Shown piece by piece: positions 1,233-64,000 of a stretch of 64,000 nucleotides of DNA (position 1 is its first letter; each line of letters begins with the position of its first letter). The stretch is from assembly GCA_947387485.1 (NCBI GenBank), contig CANDNT010000001.1, positions 1,054,001 through 1,118,000 of the forward strand. Reading direction: 5' to 3'. This DNA comes from Aquimarina rhabdastrellae (lineage in GTDB: Bacteria; Bacteroidota; Bacteroidia; Flavobacteriales; Flavobacteriaceae). The translations under genes and the position numbers were made by a program. The notes below the pieces were generated by a model. The model did not search any database and was not told where the DNA came from. It was given only the letters and a program-made list of their open reading frames with translations.

Positions 1233-4200
1233 TTACATGTTTCTTCTGTACTGTCCTCCTACTTCAAATAATGCGCTTGTAATTTGACCTAAAGAACATT
1301 TTTTACATACTTCCATTAAGGCTTCAAAGATATTTTCATTATGAATAGCCTTGTGTTGTAAGTCTTTTAGTAACTCTTTGGTTTCATCTGCATAAGACTT
1401 GTGTAATTCTTCAAGAGTATTAATTTGGAATTGTTTCTCTTCTTCTGTTGCACGAATTACCTCTGCTGGTGTTACAGTAGGTGATCCTTCACTACTCAAG
1501 AATGTATTTACACCTATAATAGGGAATTCTCCTGTATGTTTTAATGTTTCGTAGTATAGACTTTCTTCTTGAATTTTACTACGCTGGTACATTGTTTCCA
1601 TTGCACCTAATACTCCACCTCTTTCGGTAATACGATCAAACTCTGCTAATACTGCTTCTTCAACAAGATCTGTTAATTCTTCAATAATAAATGATCCTTG
1701 AATTGGATTTTCGTTTTTAGCCAATCCTAATTCTTTATTGATAATTAACTGTATTGCCATTGCTCTACGTACACTAGCCTCTGTAGGTGTTGTAATCGCC
1801 TCGTCATAAGCGTTTGTATGTAAAGAATTACAGTTATCATAGATTGCATATAACGCCTGAAGTGTTGTACGGATATCATTAAAATCAATCTCCTGTGCAT
1901 GTAATGAACGTCCTGAAGTTTGAATGTGATATTTCAACATTTGCGCTCTAGGATTTGCTCCGTATTTATGTTTTAAAGCTTTCGCCCAAATCTTACGAGC
2001 AACACGACCAATTACAGCATATTCTGGATCAATTCCGTTTGAGAAGAAGAAGGATAAGTTAGGACCAAATTTATTGATATCCATCCCTCTACTTAAATAA
2101 TATTCTACATATGTAAATCCATTAGCAAGAGTTAATGCCAATTGCGTGATAGGATTTGCTCCTGCCTCAGCAATATGATATCCTGAAATAGACACAGAAT
2201 AGAAGTTACGTACATTCTTTTCTATAAAGTACTCTTGTACATCTCCCATTAATCGCAATGCAAATTCTGTAGAGAAAATACAGGTATTTTGAGCTTGATC
2301 TTCTTTAAGGATATCTGCTTGTACAGTACCACGAACAGAACTCAATGTTTTTGTTTTTATTTCTTGATAAACGTCTGTAGGTAACACTTGATCTCCTGTT
2401 ACTCCTAAAAGCATTAATCCTAATCCATCATTACCTTCTGGTAATTCTCCATTATAACGCGGACGTTCTGTACCTTTTTCTTTGTAAATCGCAGCTATCT
2501 TAGCTTCAATCGCTGCTTCTAATCCATGTTCTTTGATATACAATTCACATTGCTGATCGATAGCAGCATTCATAAAGAATCCTAATAACATAGGGGCAGG
2601 CCCATTAATCGTCATACTCACCGATGTCAAAGCATGAGCCAAGTTAAATCCTGAATATAACTTTTTTGCATCATCAAGGCAGCAAATCGATACTCCTGCA
2701 TTACCAATTTTACCATATATATCTGGTCTATGATCTGGATCATTACCATATAATGTTACAGAGTCAAACGCCGTTGATAAACGTTTTGCTGGCATTCCTA
2801 AACTTACATAATGGAAACGTCTATTAGTACGTTCTGGTCCTCCTTCTCCTGCAAACATACGTGTAGGATCTTCTCCTGTACGCTTAAACGGATATAACCC
2901 TGATGCATAAGGGAACTCTCCTGGTACATTTTCTTGTAAACTCCATTTTAAAACATCTCCCCATGCTTTATATTTTGGTAAAGCTACTTTAGGAATTTGT
3001 GTATGTGATAACGACTCTGTATGTGTTTCAATTTTAATCTCTTTATCACGTACTTTAAACGTATAAATTGGATTCTTGTATTTTTCAACTTTAGCATCCC
3101 ATCCTGTGATAATTTCCCAGTTATAAGGATCCAAATCCATTTTTACACGATCAAATTCTTTTAATAATAAAGCAACGAATTCTTTATTTTCTTCTGTCGT
3201 TGTTATAGTTTCTTCATTAATTCCAGATTTTATCAATTCTGGAACTTGCCCTACTACAGATTCTATGGTTTTATAGATTCCATATAATTTTTGAGCTACT
3301 TGTTCTTGTGTTAAAGCTTTACTATCGTATGCTCTATTGTTCTCTGAAATCTCTGATAAATAACGTGTACGTGCTGGTGGTATCACAAATATTTTTTCAG
3401 ACATTTCTTTAGAGATATGAAATTCTGATTTTAAATCAGCATCTGTTTTTTCTTCAATCTTATCCATGATAGACTTATACAACGTATTCATCCCTGGATC
3501 ATTGAATTGTGATGCTATAGTACCATATACGGGTAAGGTTTCTGGATCATCATGCCATAAGTTATGATTACGCTGGTATTGCTTTTTTACATCTCTTAAT
3601 GCATCTAGAGCTCCTCTTTTATCAAACTTGTTGATCGCTACCAAATCTGCAAAATCAAGCATATCGATTTTCTCTAATTGTGTCGCTGCTCCAAATTCTG
3701 GAGTCATCACATATAGCGATACATCAGAATGTTCTAAGATTTCTGTATCTGATTGCCCAATTCCTGATGTTTCTAATATAATCAAATCATATTCTGCTGC
3801 TTTTAATACCTCAACAGCTTCAGATACGTATTTTGATAATGCCAAATTAGATTGTCGTGTAGCAAGCGAACGCATGTATACACGCTTGTTGTTAATTGCA
3901 TTCATACGAATACGATCTCCTAATAAAGCTCCTCCAGTTTTTCTTTTAGAAGGATCTACAGAAATTAATCCTATAGTCTTTTCAGGGAAATCGATTAAGA
4001 AACGACGTACTAGCTCATCTACTAACGAAGACTTACCTGCTCCACCAGTACCCGTGATTCCTAATACTGGAGTTTTTGAAGTCTTATTTTTCTCATGAAT
4101 TTGAGCTAATGTCTCTTTTGCTACTTCAGGAAAGTTTTCTGCTGCAGAAATCACACGTGCAATAGCTCCTATTTCTTTAGACGCTAAATGTGCTGCTTCA

Positions 4201-4658
4201 CCATTTAATGCATCTCCGATTGCATAATCAGATTGCATTACCAAGTCATTAATCATTCCTTGAAGTCCCATTTCGCGACCATCATCTGGAGAATAGATAC
4301 GTGTGATACCATAATCCATTAATTCTTTGATCTCTTCTGGAAGGATTACTCCTCCTCCTCCACCAAAGATTTTTATATGTCCTGCTCCTTTTTCTTGAAG
4401 CAAATCATACATATATTTAAAATATTCGTTATGTCCTCCTTGATAAGAAGTCATCGCGATAGCATTTGCATCTTCTTGGATAGCACAATTCACAACTTCT
4501 TCTACACTGCGATCGTGTCCTAAATGAATCACTTCTACTCCTGTAGATTGAATGATTCTACGCATGATATTAATAGCGGCATCGTGTCCGTCAAACAACG
4601 AAGCGGCTGTTACAATTCTTACTTTATGTTTAGGGGTATATGGTGCTATTTGTTCCAT
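1233..4658 (-). CDS. icmF: Fused acyl-CoA mutase IcmF (isobutyryl-CoA mutase with G-protein chaperone)
   Basis: This adenosylcobalamin-dependent carbon-skeleton mutase carries its own G-protein chaperone. Three modules are visible. A B12-binding domain at residues ~10-145 has the D-G-H-D motif at 23-26. A MeaB-like GTPase at ~195-450 has the P-loop GTGGAGKSS at ~203-211 and NKFD at ~343. A TIM-barrel mutase domain runs from ~560 to the end. At the two substrate-selectivity positions it has Phe602 (RMFAGEGG) and Gln790 (AQNTCIF). These match IcmF enzymes and not the Tyr/Arg pair of methylmalonyl-CoA mutase. The likely substrate is isobutyryl-/n-butyryl-CoA or a similar branched acyl-CoA, although databases often label such proteins methylmalonyl-CoA mutase. 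It is transcribed alone. Confidence 0.93.
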
Positions 4659-53181: not shown

Positions 53182-53598
53182 TTATAATTTCCAAAACTTA
53201 ATAAATAAATTTTCGGGTATATATTTTTTTGGATCAGTAGATAGTCCTACTTCATTTGGTATTTTTACTTCCATAAATAGGTAATTTAAATGATTCTCAT
53301 TTTTTAAATAGACATTTAAATAATACTCTCCAACTAATGGAGCTTCTTCCCAAGCTTGAAAAGAATGATATCCGTACATTACTTTATCTTCATGCAAAAA
53401 TTCATACTTAATATGTCTACCAGCATAACTTCCTGGATTAATCTCTAAAATTTTTGCAATAGTAAAAACACCTTCATTTTTTAGTTTGTTTACTGTTCTT
53501 ATTTTAAAAACCAGTATAACAAAAAGGTAAACTATTATTAAAGAAATATAAATTTTATAATTCCTCTGACTTTTGAAAAACGTCTTAATCTTATTCAT
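53182..53598 (-). CDS. Hypothetical membrane protein (DUF3592-like)
   Basis: A 138-residue protein with one N-terminal membrane segment (~15-33, KIYISLIIVYLFVILVFKI). An extracytoplasmic beta-rich domain follows with IAKILEINPGSYAGRHIKYEF and GEYYLNVYLKNE. GEYY and the short A-x-I-x-E/N opening resemble DUF3592-type and flavobacterial immunity-like proteins. It is part of the small-gene array. The function is unknown. Confidence 0.6.
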   Translation of the reverse strand: MNKIKTFFKSQRNYKIYISLIIVYLFVILVFKIRTVNKLKNEGVFTIAKILEINPGSYAGRHIKYEFLHEDKVMYGYHSFQAWEEAPLVGEYYLNVYLKNENHLNYLFMEVKIPNEVGLSTDPKKYIPENLFIKFWKL

Positions 53599-53647
53599 TT
53601 TTTATAATCATGCTATTTTTGATAAAAAACATACTAAACTCATCATA

Positions 53648-54130
53648 TTATTCATGATCATAAACATTTTCAAATATTAATAGGTAAATCAAGATATAAT
53701 TTATAAATACTTGAAATTCATCTTTTATAAATATTTTATACTCTTTTTTAAAAACGAAAAATGACTTTTTAACATATCCTATAAACTTATCTTCAATAAA
53801 TATTTTTATATATGGATTAAAAAAAATAATCTTATTATACTTAAAATTAATTTTATTCTCTTTTTCTATATCAATAAAACCTTTGAAAGATAGCCCTTTT
53901 CTTTTTTCAAATTGACTTGTATTCAAATTACATCCATCACTATCACTAGTAAATTTTATAGAATTTGTTTTATCATCGGTTGTTATCATTAAAAAATCAT
54001 CTCTATCATATACTCTTATTCTTCTTTTGTCAAAACTTATTAAATTAGATATTGAATAAAATAACAATTCACCTTCTTCATTAATAGCAGAAATTTTTTC
54101 ATTAAATGTTCCTGTAATTTTAAAATTCAT
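53648..54130 (-). CDS. Hypothetical protein (160 aa)
   Basis: A 160-residue protein without signal peptide, rich in beta strands. YSISNLISFDKRRIRVYDRDDFLMITTD and YIKIFIEDKFIGYVKKSFFVFKKEYKIFI repeat a strand-turn pattern that faintly resembles tubby/LURP-like domains. The C-terminal ~20 residues are hydrophobic (INYILIYLLIF), a possible membrane tail. Not recognised further. Confidence 0.5.
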   Translation of the reverse strand: MNFKITGTFNEKISAINEEGELLFYSISNLISFDKRRIRVYDRDDFLMITTDDKTNSIKFTSDSDGCNLNTSQFEKRKGLSFKGFIDIEKENKINFKYNKIIFFNPYIKIFIEDKFIGYVKKSFFVFKKEYKIFIKDEFQVFINYILIYLLIFENVYDHE

Positions 54131-54207
54131 GTTATATATTATTATTTAAATCCAAAAGTGGTATTGCATGTATACGCTTTACAAAATGAAACTACTTTAT
54201 ATTGTTT

Positions 54208-54609
54208 TTAATAGTGTTCTTTTAATTCTATATTTAGTTTTAGATATCCCTCTATCAACTTTATTAATTCATCATTTTTATAATACTTTCTTTTATATCT
54301 AACAATAGGTCCATCAGTTTCTGAAAAGATTATATAGAAATAGTTTTTGTGACTCTTGGAATAAACTACTTCAATGTAACCCCTGTTATTTCTGACCTTT
54401 GCATTAATACTTCTATTAGAATACTTCAGCAGGTTATAAATAGTGTTTAAACTTCTTTTATCTTTTAAAGTAATAGTATTTATACTTTTGAAAGCTTTAT
54501 TTGTTTTATTTATCAATGTTATTTCTTTACCACTATCGTTATCACTGTTTTCATCAATTGAATTACAGGAAATAATACAGGTAAACACTATTAAAACAAA
54601 AAACCTCAT
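54208..54609 (-). CDS. Hypothetical lipoprotein (133 aa)
   Basis: Starting at the ATG at 54609 gives a lipoprotein signal (FFVLIVFTCIISC, lipobox Cys at ~15), followed by a Ser/Asp-rich linker and a small soluble domain (INKTNKAFKSINTITLKDKRSLN, then YSKSHKNYFYIIFSETDGPI). The frame is also open 15 residues upstream, but that start has no signal. It is probably a periplasmic immunity-type protein in the array. Confidence 0.6.
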   Translation of the reverse strand: MRFFVLIVFTCIISCNSIDENSDNDSGKEITLINKTNKAFKSINTITLKDKRSLNTIYNLLKYSNRSINAKVRNNRGYIEVVYSKSHKNYFYIIFSETDGPIVRYKRKYYKNDELIKLIEGYLKLNIELKEHY

Positions 54610-54711
54610 TGAACATTTAATTTTAGCATCTCCTATAAAACAACCAATTGACACACATTATAATACTTAAAAAACATTTTTAATAATCACTCCTTTCTAA
54701 AATAATAGTTT

Positions 54712-55137
54712 TTATATTTTGTGTTTAACAACCCCTATATCTTCGCCATAATCAAAGCGTATTTCTTCTAAAAACTCTCCAATTTCTTTATATTCTTCAT
54801 CAGAAATAGTAGTTCTATTACAATTGTTTTTTTCTAAATATTCTAAAAACTCTAACGGCCATTTTAATCCATAATTAATAGTATAATAATCCAAATCAGC
54901 ACTCCAAAGCCATTTTCCATCAGTATTCAATGTCCAATAATGTGGAACTCTTTCATCTGTAAATAGAGATCTATTTCTATCTAAGAAAAAACAAAAATTT
55001 TCAGATTCAGAAAGATGTTTTATTAATCTTTCATTCTTAAATCCAATATTATTTTTAATGTAAGAATCAGAAATTAAATACATATTCTTTTCTGTTATGT
55101 TAAAAATTATTCGTCCTCTTATTTCTTTTGTATTCAT
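54712..55137 (-). CDS. Hypothetical soluble protein (141 aa)
   Basis: A 141-residue cytoplasmic acidic protein rich in aromatic residues. WTLNTDGKWLWSADLDYYTINYGLKWPLEFLEYLEKNN resembles the compact shape of SUKH/immunity-like proteins, and TTISDEEYKEIGEFLEEI follows. Candidate orphan immunity protein by context; no family is claimed. Confidence 0.6.
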   Translation of the reverse strand: MNTKEIRGRIIFNITEKNMYLISDSYIKNNIGFKNERLIKHLSESENFCFFLDRNRSLFTDERVPHYWTLNTDGKWLWSADLDYYTINYGLKWPLEFLEYLEKNNCNRTTISDEEYKEIGEFLEEIRFDYGEDIGVVKHKI

Positions 55138-55288
55138 GTTTATATAGTATCTAATTCTTTGATATAGATATTTTACATCTCTCTTATCATTGTTTTCTCT
55201 TTCGATTTACATTAACATCAAGAAGTAAACTTAATACTGCAATTTTTATTAATCGTGAAACATAACTAATAACCTTTTTCTTAATCTA

Positions 55289-55492
55289 TTAATCAAAGAA
55301 AATTATCATTATTAAAATTATGCAACATACAAAAGCTATCCCTACATTATAATTAGCCGTATCATGACTAAAAGCATCTCTACTTTTAAAATCAAAAGTT
55401 TTCCATATATCTGTAAATGACAATTTTCTTTGTTTTATAATTCTCAAATAACTATATCTTATAATCGCTCCTACAAACTCTAAAAGTATCAT
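55289..55492 (-). CDS. Hypothetical small membrane protein (67 aa)
   Basis: A 67-residue protein with two hydrophobic stretches, residues ~1-17 and ~48-66 (GIAFVCCIILIMIIFFD), joined by a basic cytoplasmic loop (IKQRKLSFTDIWKTFDFKSRD). It is 17 nt downstream of another small membrane gene on the same strand. Not recognised. Confidence 0.5.
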   Translation of the reverse strand: MILLEFVGAIIRYSYLRIIKQRKLSFTDIWKTFDFKSRDAFSHDTANYNVGIAFVCCIILIMIIFFD

Positions 55493-55509
55493 ATACTGCT
55501 ATTAACTAT

Positions 55510-55881
55510 TTATCTAAAATTTAATTCAATACTATAAACAAATAATATTACGGATGATAATATATATATCATCATCCATAACCCCATATATTCGGGATAC
55601 ATCTTTTGATTTTTTAACAAATATTCTGTTTTTCTCTTATAATTATAATGATTACTAATGAATAAGATTATACAGATAATAAAATATCCCCAAAAAAAAT
55701 ATGATGGAATATTTATACTCAATATTGTTAATATTAAATTAATTATAGTTGCTATATTATTAAACTGACAAAATGAAATAATAATTACAGGCATTATCAT
55801 AGGCTCATATTCATTTATACTCAATTGCCTATAATACAAACACAGGTACATGTTTTCATAGAAAGCTTGTATGTATTTCAT
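55510..55881 (-). CDS. Hypothetical integral membrane protein (123 aa)
   Basis: A 123-residue protein with about four membrane helices (~29-42, ~46-60, ~61-76, ~102-118) and an N-terminal Tyr-rich stretch (YENMYLCLYYRQ). It probably shares a transcript with the 67-residue gene that follows it after 17 nt. Not recognised. Confidence 0.55.
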   Translation of the reverse strand: MKYIQAFYENMYLCLYYRQLSINEYEPMIMPVIIISFCQFNNIATIINLILTILSINIPSYFFWGYFIICIILFISNHYNYKRKTEYLLKNQKMYPEYMGLWMMIYILSSVILFVYSIELNFR

Positions 55882-56103
55882 TTTATTTATTCTCTTAATG
55901 CGTTTACTTTCTTTTATTGCTTTGTGTTCTCTAAATCACATAAACACACAATCTTCAACACTTTTAGTTTTCAACACAATATTCTTATTAGGGTTATATT
56001 AGTTCTTCAGTTTTTATATTTAAAAACATATATTTTCGTTAATATTAATGTTATACTCCTTCATCAAAAGAAGAAAGTTATTTTGTAAGTCCCCCAGAAT
56101 TAG

Positions 56104-56781
56104 CTACGAAGAAAGTGTTTCAAATTTGGTATAATTATTTTTAGCAAAGCTAGCTTTGTTAAAACGTTCTACAAGACTATTCTGCATGGGCTTACCAGGT
56201 TGGATATATCTAATATTAATCTCATTAGCTTTAGCCCAATCAATAAAGATTAAAGAAGTAAATTCTGGACCATTATCTACACGTATTTCTTCTGGTTTCC
56301 CTCTGTAATCAATGAGTTTATTCAACTCTCTGATAAGTCTGTGAGCGTTTATTGATATGGCTATAGTAATCCACAAAGCTTCTCTATTAAAATCATCAAT
56401 AATATTAAGTGTTCTAAACCTTCTTCCATCTATTAAACTATCTGACATAAAATCCATACTCCAAACAATATTTTGAGTAATAGGGAGTGTCAAAGGAGCT
56501 TTTACTCTAGCTGGAAGGCGTTTTTTAGGTCTACGTTTTATATTAAGTCCCATCAATTTATATATTCTATAAATACGTTTATGATTCCAAGTATAACCTC
56601 TTAAACGAAGTGTTCTGTATAGCTTTTTGAAACCATAGGTAGGATATTTACTCACCAACTGATCTAACAATACAATGATTTGTGAATCGTCTTTTCTCTT
56701 AGCTTTATAATAATAAACAGATGTACTTATGTTTAAAAGCTTACAAGAAACACGAATACTTAAATTATGTTCTTTGATCAA
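56104..56781 (-). pseudogene. IS3 transposase OrfB, C-terminally truncated
   Basis: Normally ~270-290 residues; here 225. The DDE catalytic Asp (WSMDFMSD), second Asp (VDNGPEFTS) and Glu (NSLVERFN) are all present, as is the HTH_21 region at ~5-70. After VERFN the sequence changes to KASFAKNNYTKFETLSS and stops, where an intact enzyme continues with about 45-50 residues. The C-terminal part was lost through a deletion next to the IS end. It is produced from OrfA by -1 frameshifting in intact copies. Confidence 0.8.
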
Positions 56782-56813
56782 ATATTTTGCTTGATCTCGT
56801 TTCTCAGTTGGTT

Positions 56814-57080
56814 TTAAAGCTTTTTTTCTATTAAATCTTTTAGTGCGTAATTTTGATGTGCTAATTCAGCATACATTTGTTTATATCGACTTAACTCAGC
56901 TTCCATCTCCCGCATCTTCTTAAGTTGAGAAATCTCTAATCCTCCATATTTTCGCCTCCAATTATAAAATGTTTGAAGACTAATGCTTTCTGCTTTGCAT
57001 ATCTCTTTTACTGAAACGCCTGACTCGTGGCGTTTTAAAAAACTAATAATCTGTGACTCTGTAAATCTGCTCTTTTTCAT
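56814..57080 (-). CDS. IS3 transposase OrfA (HTH)
   Basis: An 88-residue protein with the transposase_8 HTH (KSRFTESQIISFLKRHESGVSVKEICKAESISLQTFYNWRRKYGG) and a leucine-zipper-like second half ending LIEKKL. The run A-AAA-AAA-G at 56821-56827 (minus strand), with the OrfB frame opening from it, is a typical slippery site for the OrfAB fusion. Confidence 0.85.
   Translation of the reverse strand: MKKSRFTESQIISFLKRHESGVSVKEICKAESISLQTFYNWRRKYGGLEISQLKKMREMEAELSRYKQMYAELAHQNYALKDLIEKKL
56821..56827 (-). promoter_or_regulatory. Programmed -1 frameshift slippery site
   Basis: On the minus strand seven A's are followed by GCTTT. A -1 slip joins EKK to ALKPTEKRDQAK and continues into OrfB, the standard IS3 arrangement. 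Confidence 0.7.
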
Positions 57081-57147
57081 ACGAATAAAGTTATGGCTAT
57101 TTTTCTATTTTTATCCGTAGCTATTTTTTAGGGAGACTTATAATCAA

Positions 57148-57570
57148 TCAACTATCATTATTACTTTTTTCATTTAAAAAATCAATAAAACTTTCTAATT
57201 TAGAAGAACTAACTATAAAATCTAATTGAGGTAAAAAAATATAAGTCTTTTTATTTTTACAACATACCTTGATGTTATTACTTTTTTTCATTTTTCTAAA
57301 TTCTTCTATTTCACTCCATAATACTTTTTCCTCTTTTCTTTTTTCTTTTATTATAAGTCCTTCATCACATATATATACTTGTTTAAGAAATATCAAATGT
57401 TTCATATTACATATAGCAAGAACAAAAAATATTAATATAATCGGAATGAAAAGATATACTTTATTAGAAATCAATACATACAAAAAAACTATTTGAACCA
57501 TTATAAAGGCATATGGTAAAAAATATTTAGCTAAAAATGTAAAATCATTACTTATTTTTTTCTTACTCAT
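57148..57570 (-). CDS. Hypothetical membrane protein with PH-like domain
   Basis: A 140-residue protein with two membrane helices (~12-32 and ~36-52). A soluble part begins VYICDEGLIIKEKRKEEKVLWSEIEEFRKM and continues YIFLPQLDFIVSSSKLESFIDFL. This strand order is like small bacterial PH-like/YcxB-type domains. It stops 8 bp before the IS3 element, which did not interrupt it. In the small-gene array; the function is unknown. Confidence 0.55.
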   Translation of the reverse strand: MSKKKISNDFTFLAKYFLPYAFIMVQIVFLYVLISNKVYLFIPIILIFFVLAICNMKHLIFLKQVYICDEGLIIKEKRKEEKVLWSEIEEFRKMKKSNNIKVCCKNKKTYIFLPQLDFIVSSSKLESFIDFLNEKSNNDS

Positions 57571-57686
57571 TATATATTCATTCTTCTATATTAGCTACAA
57601 ACATAGCACATCTCTCAATTCTAAAAATAACTTTATAGATGTATTACAAATTCTATCATAGAGAAACTTACGTACTACTCTTATTT

Positions 57687-58313
57687 TTAATTATTTCTCT
57701 TGTTTGGAAATACTCCTATTCTAAAGCCAACACTTTCACCAAACTGATTTGTCTCACCTATTAAATGAAGTTCATCTATAATACATTCATCTAATATACT
57801 ATCAAAAGCACCACCTAAAGCAGGATATACATTATACTTATTATTTTTATAATCATATTTTGTATAATTTTCTTCATGACACCATTCTTCTATATTACCA
57901 TATAGATCGTATAAGCCAAATTTATTAGGCTTCTTTTTACCTACCTCTTGTAATTTATTATTACTATTAGCACTATACCAAGCATATTCTGATAATTTCT
58001 TATCATCAATTCCAAAAGACCATTTCTGTTTCGAATCTCCCATACACGCATATGTCCATTCTTGAACTTGAGGTATATCCACATAATAATCTTCATTAAT
58101 TTTCCCTTCTAGGCGAAGTTTCTTTTCTAAACGATTACAATACTCTATTATCTCATCAAAATGATAGAAACCTATAGCAGGATGCTTTTTTTCTAGTCTT
58201 TGCCAATAATTTAACTCATTCATTCCCAATAAATACCAATCAGCTACAGTAACTGGTGTTTTATTGATAAAAAAACTTTTTTCGTTGTCATTAATTTCTA
58301 TTAGATCAATCAT
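57687..58313 (-). CDS. Formylglycine-generating-enzyme-like (SUMF1) domain protein
   Basis: A 208-residue cytosolic protein of the FGE-sulfatase fold. FFINKTPVTVADWYLLG is the strand after the N-terminal helix (family: hKyEVTNxQY). Later come YVDIPQVQEWTYACMGDS, KPNKFGLYDLYGNIEEWCHE and LGGAFDS...GFRIGVF, the family's core motifs. The catalytic cysteine pair of true FGE is not evident. Such stand-alone SUMF1-like proteins occur in flavobacterial toxin/immunity arrays and may be non-enzymatic. Confidence 0.75.
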   Translation of the reverse strand: MIDLIEINDNEKSFFINKTPVTVADWYLLGMNELNYWQRLEKKHPAIGFYHFDEIIEYCNRLEKKLRLEGKINEDYYVDIPQVQEWTYACMGDSKQKWSFGIDDKKLSEYAWYSANSNNKLQEVGKKKPNKFGLYDLYGNIEEWCHEENYTKYDYKNNKYNVYPALGGAFDSILDECIIDELHLIGETNQFGESVGFRIGVFPNKRNN

Positions 58314-58482
58314 TTATTAACTATATTATAAGAGAAGTATGTAGTTGGTAATTACTACGGAGATATTTGCATTAAAGAAATTCTATTTTTCTTTATTTTA
58401 CTCTTTTAAATAACAATGTTCCGCGTTGATATTTTATCAATTACGTTGTTATATTTTTTAAGAACATCTTCGTGAATTTCTT
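58314..58482. other. Decayed reading-frame remnant before the S74-like fragment
   Basis: A frame shifted relative to 58483-58623 reads EEIHEDVLKKYNNVIDKIS and looks like a continuation of it after a frameshift. Confidence 0.35.
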
Positions 58483-58623
58483 CTATGCTTTTATGGTACC
58501 ATCAACTTCAAGTTTTTCTGATGGTGTTGTTATACCTATACCTATTTTATCACCTGTATCTGTTAGTTGTGCAAATACTCCATAACTCATACAAAATATG
58601 ATTATACTTATTGCTCTTTTCAT
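58483..58623 (-). pseudogene. Remnant of a secreted tail-fibre-like (peptidase S74 type) gene
   Basis: An ATG at 58623 begins a 46-residue peptide: a signal peptide (MKRAISIIIFCMSYGVFAQ), then DTGDKIGIGITTPSEKLEVDGTIKA, and TAG. IGIG(T)TTPSEKLEVDGTIKA is the standard opening of flavobacterial secreted tail-fibre-like proteins that continue with hundreds of residues. Here the gene is cut short and out of frame afterwards, so it is a fragment. Confidence 0.65.
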
Positions 58624-58811
58624 GTTTTTGATTTAATGAATTTATTCTCTTATAAAGATACTTATTTTAAACCTTTATTAGCTACGCAATATTTTAAAGA
58701 ATCATCTAGTATTTAAAAATAAACAGGACGAATAAATATATCTCCTCAATCTACTACAGTAATAGTTATAAATGTTGGTACTGTGCTATCTATGACTTTA
58801 TAACACTGAGA

Positions 58812-58856
58812 CATATTTAAATATAACTACTCTAGTGCATTTTTGCAAAGCATATT
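58812..58856. repeat. 45-bp direct repeat, copy A (flanks the RAYT pseudogene)
   Basis: CATATTTAAATATAACTA...GCAAAGCATATT; 42 of 45 bases match copy B at 59647-59691. Confidence 0.75.
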
Positions 58857-58887
58857 TATTTGTATACAACTGTTCTTTATGTACATT

Positions 58888-58970
58888 ACAAATGCACAAA
58901 TAAAAGGCACACTTTACAAAAGTGTACCAGTTATTATTTCTTATTTTTTATATCCCGCTCGAGGGGAGTT
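58888..58970. repeat. Dispersed repeat, copy 2
   Basis: Matches 53092-53173 over about 83 bp, with core TTATTTCTTATTTTTTATATCC and a GAGGGG end. It lies 32 bp after direct-repeat copy A. Confidence 0.65.
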
Positions 58971-58994
58971 CTTTGATAAAAATATGGCTTTGCT

Positions 58995-59552
58995 TTAAAC
59001 TATAAAACCTACATCGTCTATTTCTAAAATAGTAGTATCATCTTGGTAGTTTCTTGCACTTGAATATTTCCAATCTTCTGGGTTAATAACAAAACCGCTC
59101 AATACTGGATTGTTATGGGTATAATCTATTTTCTGTTTAATCACTTTTTCACTCCATAACTCGATAGGCATATTGTGTTGTTGCCAAAATTGGTGTTTAC
59201 TTGTTGTTGCATTTTTCTTTCATGCTTTCGCAAACATCCATAATAACCACTCTTTTCTACTTTCTTGTGGGTTAGTTTCTATCGCTTCTATAACTTTTCT
59301 GGAAGTATAACGCTTAAAATCTCTTAATAATTCCGCTGGTTGCTCATTTGTAGAACGAAATACAAAATGTACATGGCTTGGCATAAAACAATAGGCATAC
59401 AACTCCATTCCTTTTTCTGCTCTGCAATAACTTACACTATTTGCTAATACATCTAAATACACTTGTCTAGTAAATACATCTAGCCAATAAATTGTAGCAA
59501 AACTCACAAAATATAAACCTAACTTATTATGAAATTTGTATTTTCTACTCAT
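58995..59552 (-). pseudogene. REP-associated tyrosine transposase (RAYT/TnpA-REP), interrupted by TGA
   Basis: The frame from 59552 encodes a Y1-transposase of the REP type: YCFMPSHVHFVFRS contains the HxH motif, and GFVINPEDWKYSSARNY near the end is typical of RAYTs. An in-frame TGA at 59220-59222 stops it after WLLWMFAKA, while the same frame continues with KKNATTSKHQFWQQHNMPIEL and SEKVIKQKIDYTHNNPVL to TAA at 58995. A single base change separates this from a complete ~185-residue protein. REP-like hairpins and direct repeats flank it. Confidence 0.85.
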
Positions 59553-59624
59553 ACTTAAAAATACAAAAAGCTACTCTAATTTCTTAGCATAGCTTTATAT
59601 TCTATTTGCTTACTACTCATAAAC

Positions 59625-59647
59625 GCCACTAGCTACAAGCTAGCGGC
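59625..59647. repeat. REP-like hairpin 1
   Basis: GCCACTAGC-TACAA-GCTAGCGGC: nine-bp arms with a single A-C mismatch at the sixth pair and loop TACAA. It has the same design as hairpin 2. Confidence 0.7.
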
Positions 59648-59691
59648 ATATTTAAATATAACTAATCTAGTATATTTTTGCAAAGCATATT
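59647..59691. repeat. 45-bp direct repeat, copy B
   Basis: CATATTTAAATATAACTA...GCAAAGCATATT; 42 of 45 bases match copy A, 835 bp apart, with the RAYT pseudogene between them. Confidence 0.75.
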
Positions 59692-59767
59692 CTTAAATAC
59701 AAAAAAAAGCTACACAGTATCTCTACTATATAGCTTCTCTTTTTATTTCTTATTTCTTTACTGTGAC

Positions 59768-59790
59768 GGCACTAGTTACAAACTAGCGCT
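59768..59790. repeat. REP-like hairpin 2
   Basis: GGCACTAGT-TACAA-ACTAGCGCT: the same loop TACAA and the same A-C mismatch at the same stem position as hairpin 1. Confidence 0.7.
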
Positions 59791-59798
59791 AGCAAGGG

Positions 59799-59836
59799 CC
59801 TTTTGTTTCTTATTTTTATATTCCGATCGAGGGAAA
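59799..59836. repeat. Dispersed repeat, partial copy 3
   Basis: The core TTTCTTATTTTTATATTCCGATCGAGGGA corresponds to the last half of the 53092 and 58888 copies. Confidence 0.55.
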
Positions 59837-59994
59837 CTTGTTTTCACATCCAATTGTTTCAAAACTCCCATTATTTTCTCGAAATTTTCGCTAAAGTTGT
59901 GCATATAAATCAAACCCTAAACACCTCAATCCACTACTAACCAGAAATTTACACAGCTTTACTTAAATCCACTACGGATTAAAATATACGTATT

Positions 59995-60714
59995 TTAAAA
60001 CCCTAAAAAACGTATATTTTTAGTAACTCTCCAGTCAACCAACTCTCGATAATCAGCAACTATTTGTGTAATGTATTCATTTTCATTAAAAATTAGTTTT
60101 GCAAAATACGTATTTGCAGCTATTCCTCCATAAAGATATATAAATATATATTTACCATCTTTTGAAGAAAATATTTCTACAGGTTTATAAAACAAAAATG
60201 ATTCACATTGATTTACATCAAAAAAATTATTAAAAGCTTCTCTTGGTATAAAAACTTTTCTATTATTGATTATCAAATCAATATTGTCAATCTCTAAACT
60301 AGGTATTCTATAGTAAGCTCCAAATCCAATTTCACCATCAAAATAGTTTAAGTTATTTCTTAATTCAATTTTATGTTTTTTGGAATCAAACTTTTTGTAC
60401 TTAATATTAACTTTAATTTCTGTACCATTTTTTAATTTACCATTAAAAGAAGTATATAAAGAATCTCTGCATTCAATATTTACTATCTTCTTCAACAAGT
60501 TCCTATTAGTTATATATTTTTCCTTAATTCTGTTTTTTTTTAAGTAATTGATTGCATAATCTACAGATCTTTCATTTACATTATATTTTTCTCCAGTTCT
60601 ATCATCTGTATAAAACTGTTCTTTCTTAATAGATTTAATATGTTCTTCAAAATCAATTTGGGAATATGCATCACAAACAATAATTAAAAAAATCACATAA
60701 ATATAGTTTTTCAT
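59995..60714 (-). CDS. Exported protein, candidate immunity protein for the Rhs toxin domain
   Basis: A 239-residue protein with a clear signal peptide (MKNYIYVIFLIIVCDAYSQ). The mature part is a mixed helical and beta domain without a recognised family: ECRDSLYTSFNGKLKNGTEIKVNIKY near 90, GEIGFGAYYRIPSLEIDNIDL near 135, FIPREAFNNFF and FYKPVEIFSSKDGKYIFIYLYGG later. It begins 16 nt after the Rhs stop, the standard place for the cognate immunity gene. A periplasmic immunity protein implies that the toxin acts in the periplasm, which agrees with the L,D-transpeptidase-like toxin motif. Function inferred from context. Confidence 0.7.
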   Translation of the reverse strand: MKNYIYVIFLIIVCDAYSQIDFEEHIKSIKKEQFYTDDRTGEKYNVNERSVDYAINYLKKNRIKEKYITNRNLLKKIVNIECRDSLYTSFNGKLKNGTEIKVNIKYKKFDSKKHKIELRNNLNYFDGEIGFGAYYRIPSLEIDNIDLIINNRKVFIPREAFNNFFDVNQCESFLFYKPVEIFSSKDGKYIFIYLYGGIAANTYFAKLIFNENEYITQIVADYRELVDWRVTKNIRFLGF

Positions 60715-60730
60715 TAAAATTTCATTTTTA

Positions 60731-63700
60731 TTAATTTGTTACACCATGAGAAATCAGATCTCCAGTAATAACTTTATATTTATTTGTAACTATCCCTTGT
60801 GGAGATGGTGCCATTATAGGATCAACAGGAAATCTTTGGTTAGTTATAAAGAAAAAACCTTGTTGATTTGTTTTATCAAACAAATCTCTTATTTGCTGTA
60901 AGGCATTAACTGTATCCATAAACGATGGCTCATATAAGTTTCCGAATTCATAATTAGGTGAATTACAAACTGCTTTACATCCAATATTGTAAGAAGGATT
61001 ACCTGGATGAATAAAAACTCCTGCATTATTTAGCCGTATAGTATTTTCCCAATTATTTTGACCTCTATGAGCCGTCATTTGATCAAATCTTATTGGGTAA
61101 ACACCTTTACTTTCTAATGCATTATCACCTGTACCAGGCCCTCTTTCATAATCATGATTCGCATACATATAAAGTACTAATTTTTGTTTTAAACTTTTTC
61201 CATTTTTAATAATTTCAAAATTAAGTTGATATTGATCTATTCCATATGAATCCGTTCCTATTATTCTAGATCTATAAACATTTAATGTATCTCTTCCTTT
61301 TATATCAATATATTTCAAAGGATTATTATACATTCCAATATAAGGAGAATCACCTTTTCCTGCTGGATCTGGGGAAAGCCATCTCACTATACGACTATCC
61401 CATATACGTTCCTCAAACGCTTCTTTACCTGTTTCATAATCCTTTTCTTGTCCTTGATATGTATATCGATATCCTCCATCTATGTTTTTATTAGGCATAG
61501 TCATTCCAAAAGGATAATAATCTGTCGCTGAGAGTGACATCTCTTGTCCAGAGTTAGTACGCCCTATCACCGCTCTTACGTTTCCTAAATGATCTTTAAG
61601 TTCATAGTACCTTCTATCTCCTTTAAAAACACCTAAACGGCTACTACCATATATAGTTCTTTCTATTAATAAACCATCTCTGTAAATCGCTATAGTATTA
61701 CCCGCAGCATCCCTAATATAATATTCTGTAGATACCGATCCTGGAACCAAATAGGAGTCTTTACGGACACGATGTCCTCTATCATTATAAAAGAACTTGA
61801 CTAAAGATACATTATTTTTCTTTATCTCGGTTACTAACCCACTTGCATTATAGCTATATTCTATGCCTTCTTCATTATTTTTAACCAGTTGACCGATATC
61901 ATTATATACATAATTTTTACCGTCTTGATCTTTGATATCTGCAGCATTGGTATCTCCTATTACTCCATCATCAACTCGTAATAATTGATTTTGTTTATCA
62001 GTTTTGTATACATAGGATAATTGATCCATTGCATTATTTCCATTTTCTGTATGTTTATTACGATTTAAACTTTGTATATTACCATTGGCATCATATGTAA
62101 TTCCATATACATTATAGTCTCCATTTGTATCTATATCTTCTCCTTTAACGATATTCGCTCTAAAGGTTAGTTTTTCGCTAGCTTTTGCATAAAACCCAGG
62201 TTTTAATGCAATTGACCTAGAGGCTTGTATATGTTGAGTATTTTCTATAGGAGTGGATAAAATTGTATCTTGCACAAATCCTTGAACATTACTGATCACT
62301 CTATTAAAACTTGCCCCAGTTAGCCATTTATTTTTATTATAGCTGTAATAATAAGTGTCTTCGGATTCATTTGTTCCTAACATTTGAGCATTCCAGCTCA
62401 TTGCTTTGATATTACCATTATATTGATCTATACCTCCATGGAGATGTCGGATATCTTTAGGCGTATTTGTTCTTCTATAATCCTGATTATAGTACTGTAA
62501 ACTCATACCGAATACATCCTGCAAATCACCTCCTGGATCCACTCCTGCATGTAGATCTGGATGGTTGATACTCTTTAATGCCCCATTAATATTATATATA
62601 TAATCCATACCTTGCAATCCATCACCTAGTTCCATTCTTTTTAAAGCACCTGTTTCATAATACTCATAATTAGCATCTTCAACAAAATGAACATCATTAG
62701 TAGAAGTTTCTACTTTTACCAAACTATAATCTGCCGAATCATAGGTATATCGATGTACAAATTGTTCCTTACTAGCTCCTTTCTGGTAATATACCTTTGC
62801 AACTTGATTTGTGATAGGGTCATATTTATAATCTATTGTCTTTACCCCTTCTAATCCGTTAATTTTTTGTACTATCCATTTTACACGTCCATAGATATCG
62901 TAACTATACCAAGTTGTTGTAGTTTCTGGATTGGTTGTATAGGTTTTTGATACATTACCAGATACAAAACTTTGTCGTTCATAATTAACAGATCTCGAAT
63001 CTCCATTAAAAGCTGCCTCTAAACCAGTATTGTCTGCAATATCGTATACAGTGAAATTTTGTTCTTTTTTGCTTAACCCCAACATCGAAGGCTCTGATCC
63101 ATCTGGATCTAATGAGTAAAAAATATTACCTAATATATGATTTGAATGAAAAACTCCACTCTCAATAGGTCTACCATAATCATCATAATTTGTATACGAA
63201 AACTCAGAACTAAATGTAGGAATTGGCTCTGTACTTATTGATATTTCAACTTGTTTACTGTTTTGAGAATAACGTATTTGCCCATCTTTACGGTATTTAA
63301 ATTGAGCTGCCCCTTCATCTACACTATTGGTTTCTATCAATTCGCCTAAAGCATTATAACGATACGTAGTTTCCATTTTTCCTTGTGGTTGCTTACTACT
63401 TACTAATCTTCCTGATTTATTATATTCATTTAGACTATAATCATAATAATTCTCACAATGTTGTATTCCAAACTCTCCGGGAAGATATACTGGCGATGAA
63501 ATATATCTTGTGGTTCCTAAAAAACTTGTTGATATACCATACCTACTTTCTATTCTATAAAAACCAGGTTTTAAAATGTATGCTGATCGCGCTTTTGTGT
63601 TATCTATAACCTCTTCGGTTATTAAATCATATATTCTATAAAAATATCCAAGAGGGATTTCTTCTAGAGTAATTTCTAGATCTTTATTTTCGCTATTAAC

Positions 63701-64000
63701 ATTCTCTGTAAGTACATTAATATCCTCACCTTCAATAGTAACCTGATCTATTAAATTATTTTTTACTCCTTCTAATTTACTTTCTATTGCTGTAGATTTA
63801 ATATCTATAGCTTTTTCATATAATCTAATATTATCACATCCTCCTACTGGTATATGTACATCTACCCATGCTTGACTTTCTATACGTACAATGTTAATCC
63901 TACTTTCTAAACTTGCATTTTCTTCATTTCCACTTCGAGCAGCTGCTATAACATTTCCATCTGAATCTCTAAAAACTACTGTTTCTATATTATCTACATC
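60731..64000 (-). CDS. Rhs/YD-repeat protein with C-terminal DUF5675-like toxin domain (5' end outside window)
   Basis: A frame open to the right edge gives at least 1089 residues; the ATG at 63376 is internal, because upstream codons read on as CENYYDYSLNEYNKSGRLVSS. Many YD/RHS repeats are visible (MDYIYNINGALKSI, QLSYVYKTDKQNQLLRV and similar). The Rhs core end has YELKDHLGNVRAVI and YYPFGM, then a DPAGKGDSPYIGMYNNPLKYIDIKGRD hinge cut in pieces by this description. The last ~185 residues (60734-61288) are a separate domain with GVFIHPGNPSYNIGCKAV: His (61007-61009) and Cys (60977-60979) in an H-x-G-N...G-C pattern, as in DUF5675 and L,D-transpeptidase-like enzymes. Confidence 0.88.
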   Translation of the reverse strand, partial: DVDNIETVVFRDSDGNVIAAARSGNEENASLESRINIVRIESQAWVDVHIPVGGCDNIRLYEKAIDIKSTAIESKLEGVKNNLIDQVTIEGEDINVLTENVNSENKDLEITLEEIPLGYFYRIYDLITEEVIDNTKARSAYILKPGFYRIESRYGISTSFLGTTRYISSPVYLPGEFGIQHCENYYDYSLNEYNKSGRLVSSKQPQGKMETTYRYNALGELIETNSVDEGAAQFKYRKDGQIRYSQNSKQVEISISTEPIPTFSSEFSYTNYDDYGRPIESGVFHSNHILGNIFYSLDPDGSEPSMLGLSKKEQNFTVYDIADNTGLEAAFNGDSRSVNYERQSFVSGNVSKTYTTNPETTTTWYSYDIYGRVKWIVQKINGLEGVKTIDYKYDPITNQVAKVYYQKGASKEQFVHRYTYDSADYSLVKVETSTNDVHFVEDANYEYYETGALKRMELGDGLQGMDYIYNINGALKSINHPDLHAGVDPGGDLQDVFGMSLQYYNQDYRRTNTPKDIRHLHGGIDQYNGNIKAMSWNAQMLGTNESEDTYYYSYNKNKWLTGASFNRVISNVQGFVQDTILSTPIENTQHIQASRSIALKPGFYAKASEKLTFRANIVKGEDIDTNGDYNVYGITYDANGNIQSLNRNKHTENGNNAMDQLSYVYKTDKQNQLLRVDDGVIGDTNAADIKDQDGKNYVYNDIGQLVKNNEEGIEYSYNASGLVTEIKKNNVSLVKFFYNDRGHRVRKDSYLVPGSVSTEYYIRDAAGNTIAIYRDGLLIERTIYGSSRLGVFKGDRRYYELKDHLGNVRAVIGRTNSGQEMSLSATDYYPFGMTMPNKNIDGGYRYTYQGQEKDYETGKEAFEERIWDSRIVRWLSPDPAGKGDSPYIGMYNNPLKYIDIKGRDTLNVYRSRIIGTDSYGIDQYQLNFEIIKNGKSLKQKLVLYMYANHDYERGPGTGDNALESKGVYPIRFDQMTAHRGQNNWENTIRLNNAGVFIHPGNPSYNIGCKAVCNSPNYEFGNLYEPSFMDTVNALQQIRDLFDKTNQQGFFFITNQRFPVDPIMAPSPQGIVTNKYKVITGDLISHGVTN

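Follow-up and report, generated by a model that had tools for sequence, protein, structure and literature searches.

A DUF5675-related Rhs tip from Aquimarina rhabdastrellae with a predicted L,D-transpeptidase-type fold and a candidate exported immunity partner

Wall-directed toxins borne by Rhs proteins have been predicted before: in the description given by Zhang et al. (2012; PMC3482391), Tox-LD-peptidase is found on RHS proteins, from Bacteroidetes among others, and is predicted to attack the cell wall. Here we describe the C-terminal tip of an Rhs protein encoded in a 64,000-nucleotide stretch of the Aquimarina rhabdastrellae genome (contig CANDNT010000001.1, positions 1,054,001 to 1,118,000; hereafter the window). 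We read the tip, with a probability of roughly 0.7, as a swappable toxin module of L,D-transpeptidase-type (YkuD/Tlde1-like) fold that belongs to the DUF5675 family (PF18925) as an outlying branch carried on Rhs proteins and attacks peptidoglycan. As far as the published description goes, Tox-LD-peptidase has the C-terminal position on RHS, the L,D-peptidase fold, the linked immunity genes and the peptidoglycan target that are predicted for the tip (PMC3482391), and this kind of weapon was therefore already predicted. The residues given there for Tox-LD-peptidase are H, S and C, of which the tip matches H and C, with an Asn three positions before the Cys where the type VI secretion system (T6SS) effector Tlde1a has Ser. 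The immunities named there are Imm16 and Imm57, whereas the partner of the tip has no Pfam immunity match, and it is by description that the two systems are set apart.

The tip forms the end of a canonical Rhs protein. The minus-strand frame whose stop codon lies at 60731 is open as far as the window edge and is the C-terminal end of a 1315-residue open reading frame in the genome. RHS repeats (PF05593, 35.2 bits for the full-length protein against a cut-off of 22; TIGR01643, 36.3 against 15.8) are found together with the Rhs-associated core (TIGR03696, 50.5 against 32.5, residues 828-902 of the part within the window), as expected of an Rhs polymorphic toxin. A gene for a 1696-residue partner, with no informative Pfam match, precedes rhs in the genome, and both products have signal-like N-termini as judged by eye. 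TIGR03696 ends just before the tip (junction ...NPLKYIDIKGR/DTLNVYRS), confirming, with the conserved residues described below, the distinct tip with a His/Cys motif proposed in a first-pass annotation of the window; the limits proposed there, 60731-61288, mark the right region but include the stop codon and omit the first Asp, which is trivial.

Core and tip have very different distributions. Of 57 genomes of the genus, 50 have a match to a 178-residue stretch of the core end, whereas the tip is matched in only 2 of 66, namely the source genome and Aquimarina sp. RZ0 (G026). In the source genome, the next-best match to the core, 66% identical and located on contig 7, leads into a tip that is not related to this one and is followed by a lipoprotein-like gene, likewise unrelated. 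With a widespread core end, a rare tip and a different tip on the other rhs gene, the tip behaves as an exchangeable module. The RZ0 tip, 75% identical to that of the window, is found in a 257-residue orphan piece composed of core and tip. Tips are scarce in broader samples (2 of 395 phylum genomes and 2 of 395 order genomes, each pair including the source genome), one scan of genome contigs returned 2 loci, and relatives of the tip itself were absent from viral contigs in a pattern scan and from phages and plasmids in tblastn searches up to E 1. The second rhs gene of the source genome, with its similar core end, lies at L081:69-1999 on the minus strand. Separately, Flavobacteriales bacterium BRH_c54 (L006) carries at least three short open reading frames (580-1245, 1220-2035 and 3926-4561) with core-end pieces and different tips, a cluster that resembles an array of stored tip cassettes.

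Conservation within the tip family is concentrated on the proposed catalytic residues. Protein searches, three in all, recovered 24 homologues in addition to the protein of the window; 23 of these homologues have DTL or DSL at the tip start (P0003 lacks that end). In the 23-row alignment A5 (window plus 22 homologues; P0009 and P0010 were excluded for length) invariance is confined to four columns, I85, H95, G104 and C105, and the His and Gly-Cys are also kept in P0009, P0010 and the L048 tip, all outside the alignment; invariance across all 23 rows argues that the motif is more than chance. In the predicted model of the tip, His95 comes after a short strand (93-94) and Gly104-Cys105 directly precede strand 106-109. 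H75 was considered as a possible third member of the catalytic site but rejected, since its invariance among the first 11 sequences did not hold in the 23-row alignment.

Sequence links the tip family, rather than the window tip by itself, to DUF5675. Likeness of the tip to DUF5675 and L,D-transpeptidases had been proposed in the first-pass annotation; on its own the tip matches no Pfam family, nothing meaningful in NCBIfam and no informative PHROG. The tip lies below the curated PF18925 cut-off, as does its best relative (P0007, 22.3 against 26.7 bits, E 1.2e-4), and with an E limit of 1 PF18925 is matched by 5 of the 23 members of the family. PHROG 1501 is reached by two of the five relatives tested (P0017 over positions 1-150 of 159, E 1.6e-4); as two true DUF5675 proteins match it at 2e-20 and 8e-20, this PHROG seems to correspond to DUF5675 in phages. 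PF18925 itself is present in 25 of 196 genomes of the order, at 34 places, none of them in the source genome. When aligned by hhalign to 27 DUF5675 proteins (from 30 loci, excluding the near-copies L021, L033 and L035), the tip alignment matched with E 1.2e-5 and 81% probability, centred on the motif and the helix that follows it. In reciprocal hidden Markov model searches against 1122 decoys (62 window open reading frames and 1060 shuffles), 9 of 27 DUF5675 and 10 of 26 tip proteins beat the best decoy. Other results on this relation are weaker: hhalign with a smaller DUF5675 set (n=9) reached probabilities of just 14.9% and 18.6%, P0017 by itself gave a weak 49% with the DUF5675 alignment A7, and the window tip beats the best decoy only narrowly (0.7 versus 0.96). 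Overall, the profile comparisons suggest that the tip family is significantly related to DUF5675 in the wider sense, with a similar order of strands and helix, a His followed by Gly-Cys, and a weak but reciprocal sequence link. Unlike the Rhs-borne tip, the aligned DUF5675 proteins are mostly stand-alone (130-180 residues), and their invariant E31, P50 and S109 are not conserved in the tip family.

Structure prediction points in the same direction, more clearly for DUF5675 than for the tip itself. The DUF5675 model resembles solved members of the L,D-transpeptidase (YkuD) fold, and the top match of the tip's own model is Tlde1a. For both models the Foldseek matches in the PDB are poor, and the L,D-transpeptidase matches emerge only on realigning the top 999 chains. 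Together, the family-level sequence relation and the predicted fold support the DUF5675/L,D-transpeptidase-like reading put forward in the first-pass annotation. Neither the tip nor 23 family members matched the Pfam families of YkuD or of the Tlde1 effectors (PF10908). A PDB sequence search with the tip alignment returned 38 sequences, SHP-2 phosphatase chains and one Gp6, at a best E of 0.11, which we judged to be chance; the same search with the DUF5675 alignment returned nothing.

The motif itself is reduced. The YkuD-family motif H...(S/T)HGC is not found in the tip, where only H95 and G104-C105 are present and N102 and I103 occupy the places of the expected Ser/Thr and second His. With Tlde1a, an L,D-transpeptidase/carboxypeptidase effector of the T6SS (PMC9638812), the tip shares 17% identity over the aligned part and the spacing of 10 between His and Cys (H121/C131 in Tlde1a); S128 and H129 of that effector are without equivalents in the tip, which rides on an Rhs protein with a signal-like N-terminus and was not seen as a T6SS effector. 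The lack of these two residues speaks for a tip that has kept the fold as a non-enzyme, serving to bind peptidoglycan or a surface and thereby to target or anchor the Rhs shell, as does the drift of the site within the fold implied by two of the 27 DUF5675 proteins without the exact Gly-Cys pair (GS in L030, which has no Cys, and AC in L031). Yet H95, G104 and C105 make up three of only four invariant columns, as would be expected of an active site and not of a mere binder, and a co-conserved partner gene suits a toxin, and we consider a purely binding role unlikely.

DUF5675 proteins of phages had in part been named accordingly. A relative of one DUF5675 protein (L020) occurs in 197 of 50,697 phage records, and 23 of the 30 matches listed, among which some records are present twice, are annotated as putative transpeptidase, L,D-carboxypeptidase/transpeptidase or the like, showing that depositors had already placed these relatives in that enzyme class. 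In the literature searched, DUF5675 appeared in phage genome papers only, and we found no paper arguing for the assignment. In crAss001 a lysis regulatory protein/holin gene precedes the relative by two genes, and in cr7_1 there is no lysis gene among the 7 features shown around it. The crAss001 protein, gp30, is a DUF5675 relative whose enzyme class was named by its depositors, and differs from the tip in being a phage gene beside lysis genes, with no Rhs or immunity gene.

The gene that begins 16 bp after the rhs stop encodes a 239-residue protein, called exported in the first-pass annotation, whose N-terminus resembles an export signal as judged by eye with the help of its hydrophobicity. 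The protein has no informative match in Pfam, NCBIfam, PHROG or PADLOC, and PADLOC run on the whole Rhs protein, the 1696-residue partner, this protein and the neighbouring Y1 gene returned nothing. In RZ0, an equally long homologue (59% identical) follows the tip homologue by 13 bases, and in a genome of another family of the class (G301) a 30% identical full-length homologue follows the remnant of a tip of the same family. By position and co-conservation, the 239-residue protein is a candidate immunity protein specific to the tip. It was matched in 7 of 397 genomes of the taxonomic family, source included and only one other strong, and its family occurs in 17 of 395 genomes of the class. On the other side of the balance, among 15 of the 18 listed loci of this family (about 1.5 kb of flanks; the source locus, L064 and L065 excluded), only G301 has a tip remnant nearby; a family so seldom found beside the tip suggests a wider group of exported-looking proteins from which the immunity may have been drawn. 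An orphan homologue (33%) lies beside a PG_binding_1 protein in G765; at L046:10388-11752 a homologue stands directly behind a PG_binding_1 protein, with no Rhs gene in the 16 kb covered. Downstream of the tip homologues in L006 and L048 lie unrelated proteins whose starts look export-like, the one in L006 having a sub-threshold CarboxypepD_reg match. Export-like partners in the five tip contexts examined (window, G026, G301, L006 and L048) fit a periplasmic target.

These observations also bear on what the tip would cut. A cysteine enzyme of this fold could act elsewhere than on the peptide stem, for instance on the lipoprotein-peptidoglycan link that DpaA cuts, or on an extracellular or host protein; Tlde1a as the top structural match, a phage relative in a lysis region and the exported look of the partner, expected for periplasmic action, all speak against it, and we regard it as improbable. 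An unrelated fold, with the His/Cys motif a chance or metal-binding likeness, would accord with the lack of a direct family match for the window tip and with the poor Foldseek E-values, both of which count against our reading, but is highly improbable given that sequence and structure agree independently.

In the mechanism that we infer for an L,D-transpeptidase-type toxin, the tip, by whatever route the Rhs protein may be delivered, would be set free from the Rhs shell inside the periplasm of a rival cell, where Cys105 as nucleophile and His95 as base would attack the peptidoglycan peptide stem at an L-D bond. The stem would be either trimmed (carboxypeptidase) or exchanged at its end (transpeptidase), weakening the wall, while the exported 239-residue product would bind the tip within the producer's own periplasm.

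The first-pass annotation knew of no Rhs toxin with such a domain. Tox-LD-peptidase, listed on RHS in 2012 (PMC3482391), qualifies that statement as far as its description reaches, but a DUF5675-type Rhs tip was not found in print in the literature searches made, within which the DUF5675-related branch, the reduced motif and the exported-looking immunity family appear new. Tentatively, and as a possibility short of probable, we propose a separate lineage of Rhs warheads, named only from Bacteroidota so far, that arose from DUF5675, a family with lysis genes as neighbours in at least one phage, and that relies on a reduced site, His-Cys lacking the Ser/Thr-His pair. If so, the tip would act in the periplasm as a hydrolase of unusual specificity, paired with an exported immunity family of its own, phage-type wall enzymes would have been recruited for warfare between bacteria, and wall-directed Rhs toxins would gain a branch without part of the classical L,D-transpeptidase motif. 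For an uncharacterised Rhs tip of Bacteroidota, our reading supplies a specific mechanism that experiments can address, one that names the catalytic residues and pairs the toxin with an immunity gene. For DUF5675, found in phages and bacteria and listed by Pfam without a function, the fold suggests that its members are likely enzymes of peptidoglycan.

Table 1. Features of the rhs locus and its surroundings, in window positions.
Feature	Position	Strand	Remarks
3' part of rhs gene	60731..64000	-	1089 of 1315 residues in window; remainder on same contig past window end
Rhs-associated core end (hyperconserved), precedes tip	61295..61519	-	TIGR03696
C-terminal tip, 186 residues plus stop: DUF5675-like domain, predicted L,D-transpeptidase-type fold	60731..61291	-	
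Motif GVFIHPGNPSYNIGC	60977..61021	-	
His95 codon of tip, predicted catalytic base	61007..61009	-	invariant in 23 of 23 rows
Gly104-Cys105 codons, Cys predicted nucleophile	60977..60982 (Cys 60977-60979)	-	invariant in 23 of 23 rows
Candidate immunity protein, 239 residues, signal-peptide-like N-terminus	59995..60714	-	starts 16 bp after rhs stop
Short Y1/IS200-like transposase gene, 110 residues	59220-59552	-	just past immunity gene
FGE-sulfatase-like protein	57687-58313	-	
Weakly DUF6585-like protein	57148-57570	-	
IS3-like transposase genes	56104-57080	-	by eye

Behind the candidate immunity gene, a run of small minus-strand genes occupies window positions 53182-60714 (Table 1), several of whose short products have no convincing Pfam family; the run may be a polyimmunity or decayed cassette array. 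Promoter-like sites numbered 13 against 13.2 expected, and no terminator was found. A longer relative (182 residues, by eye) of the short Y1/IS200-like transposase is found near the orphan Rhs tips of L006, and transposases of this type may accompany tip cassettes.
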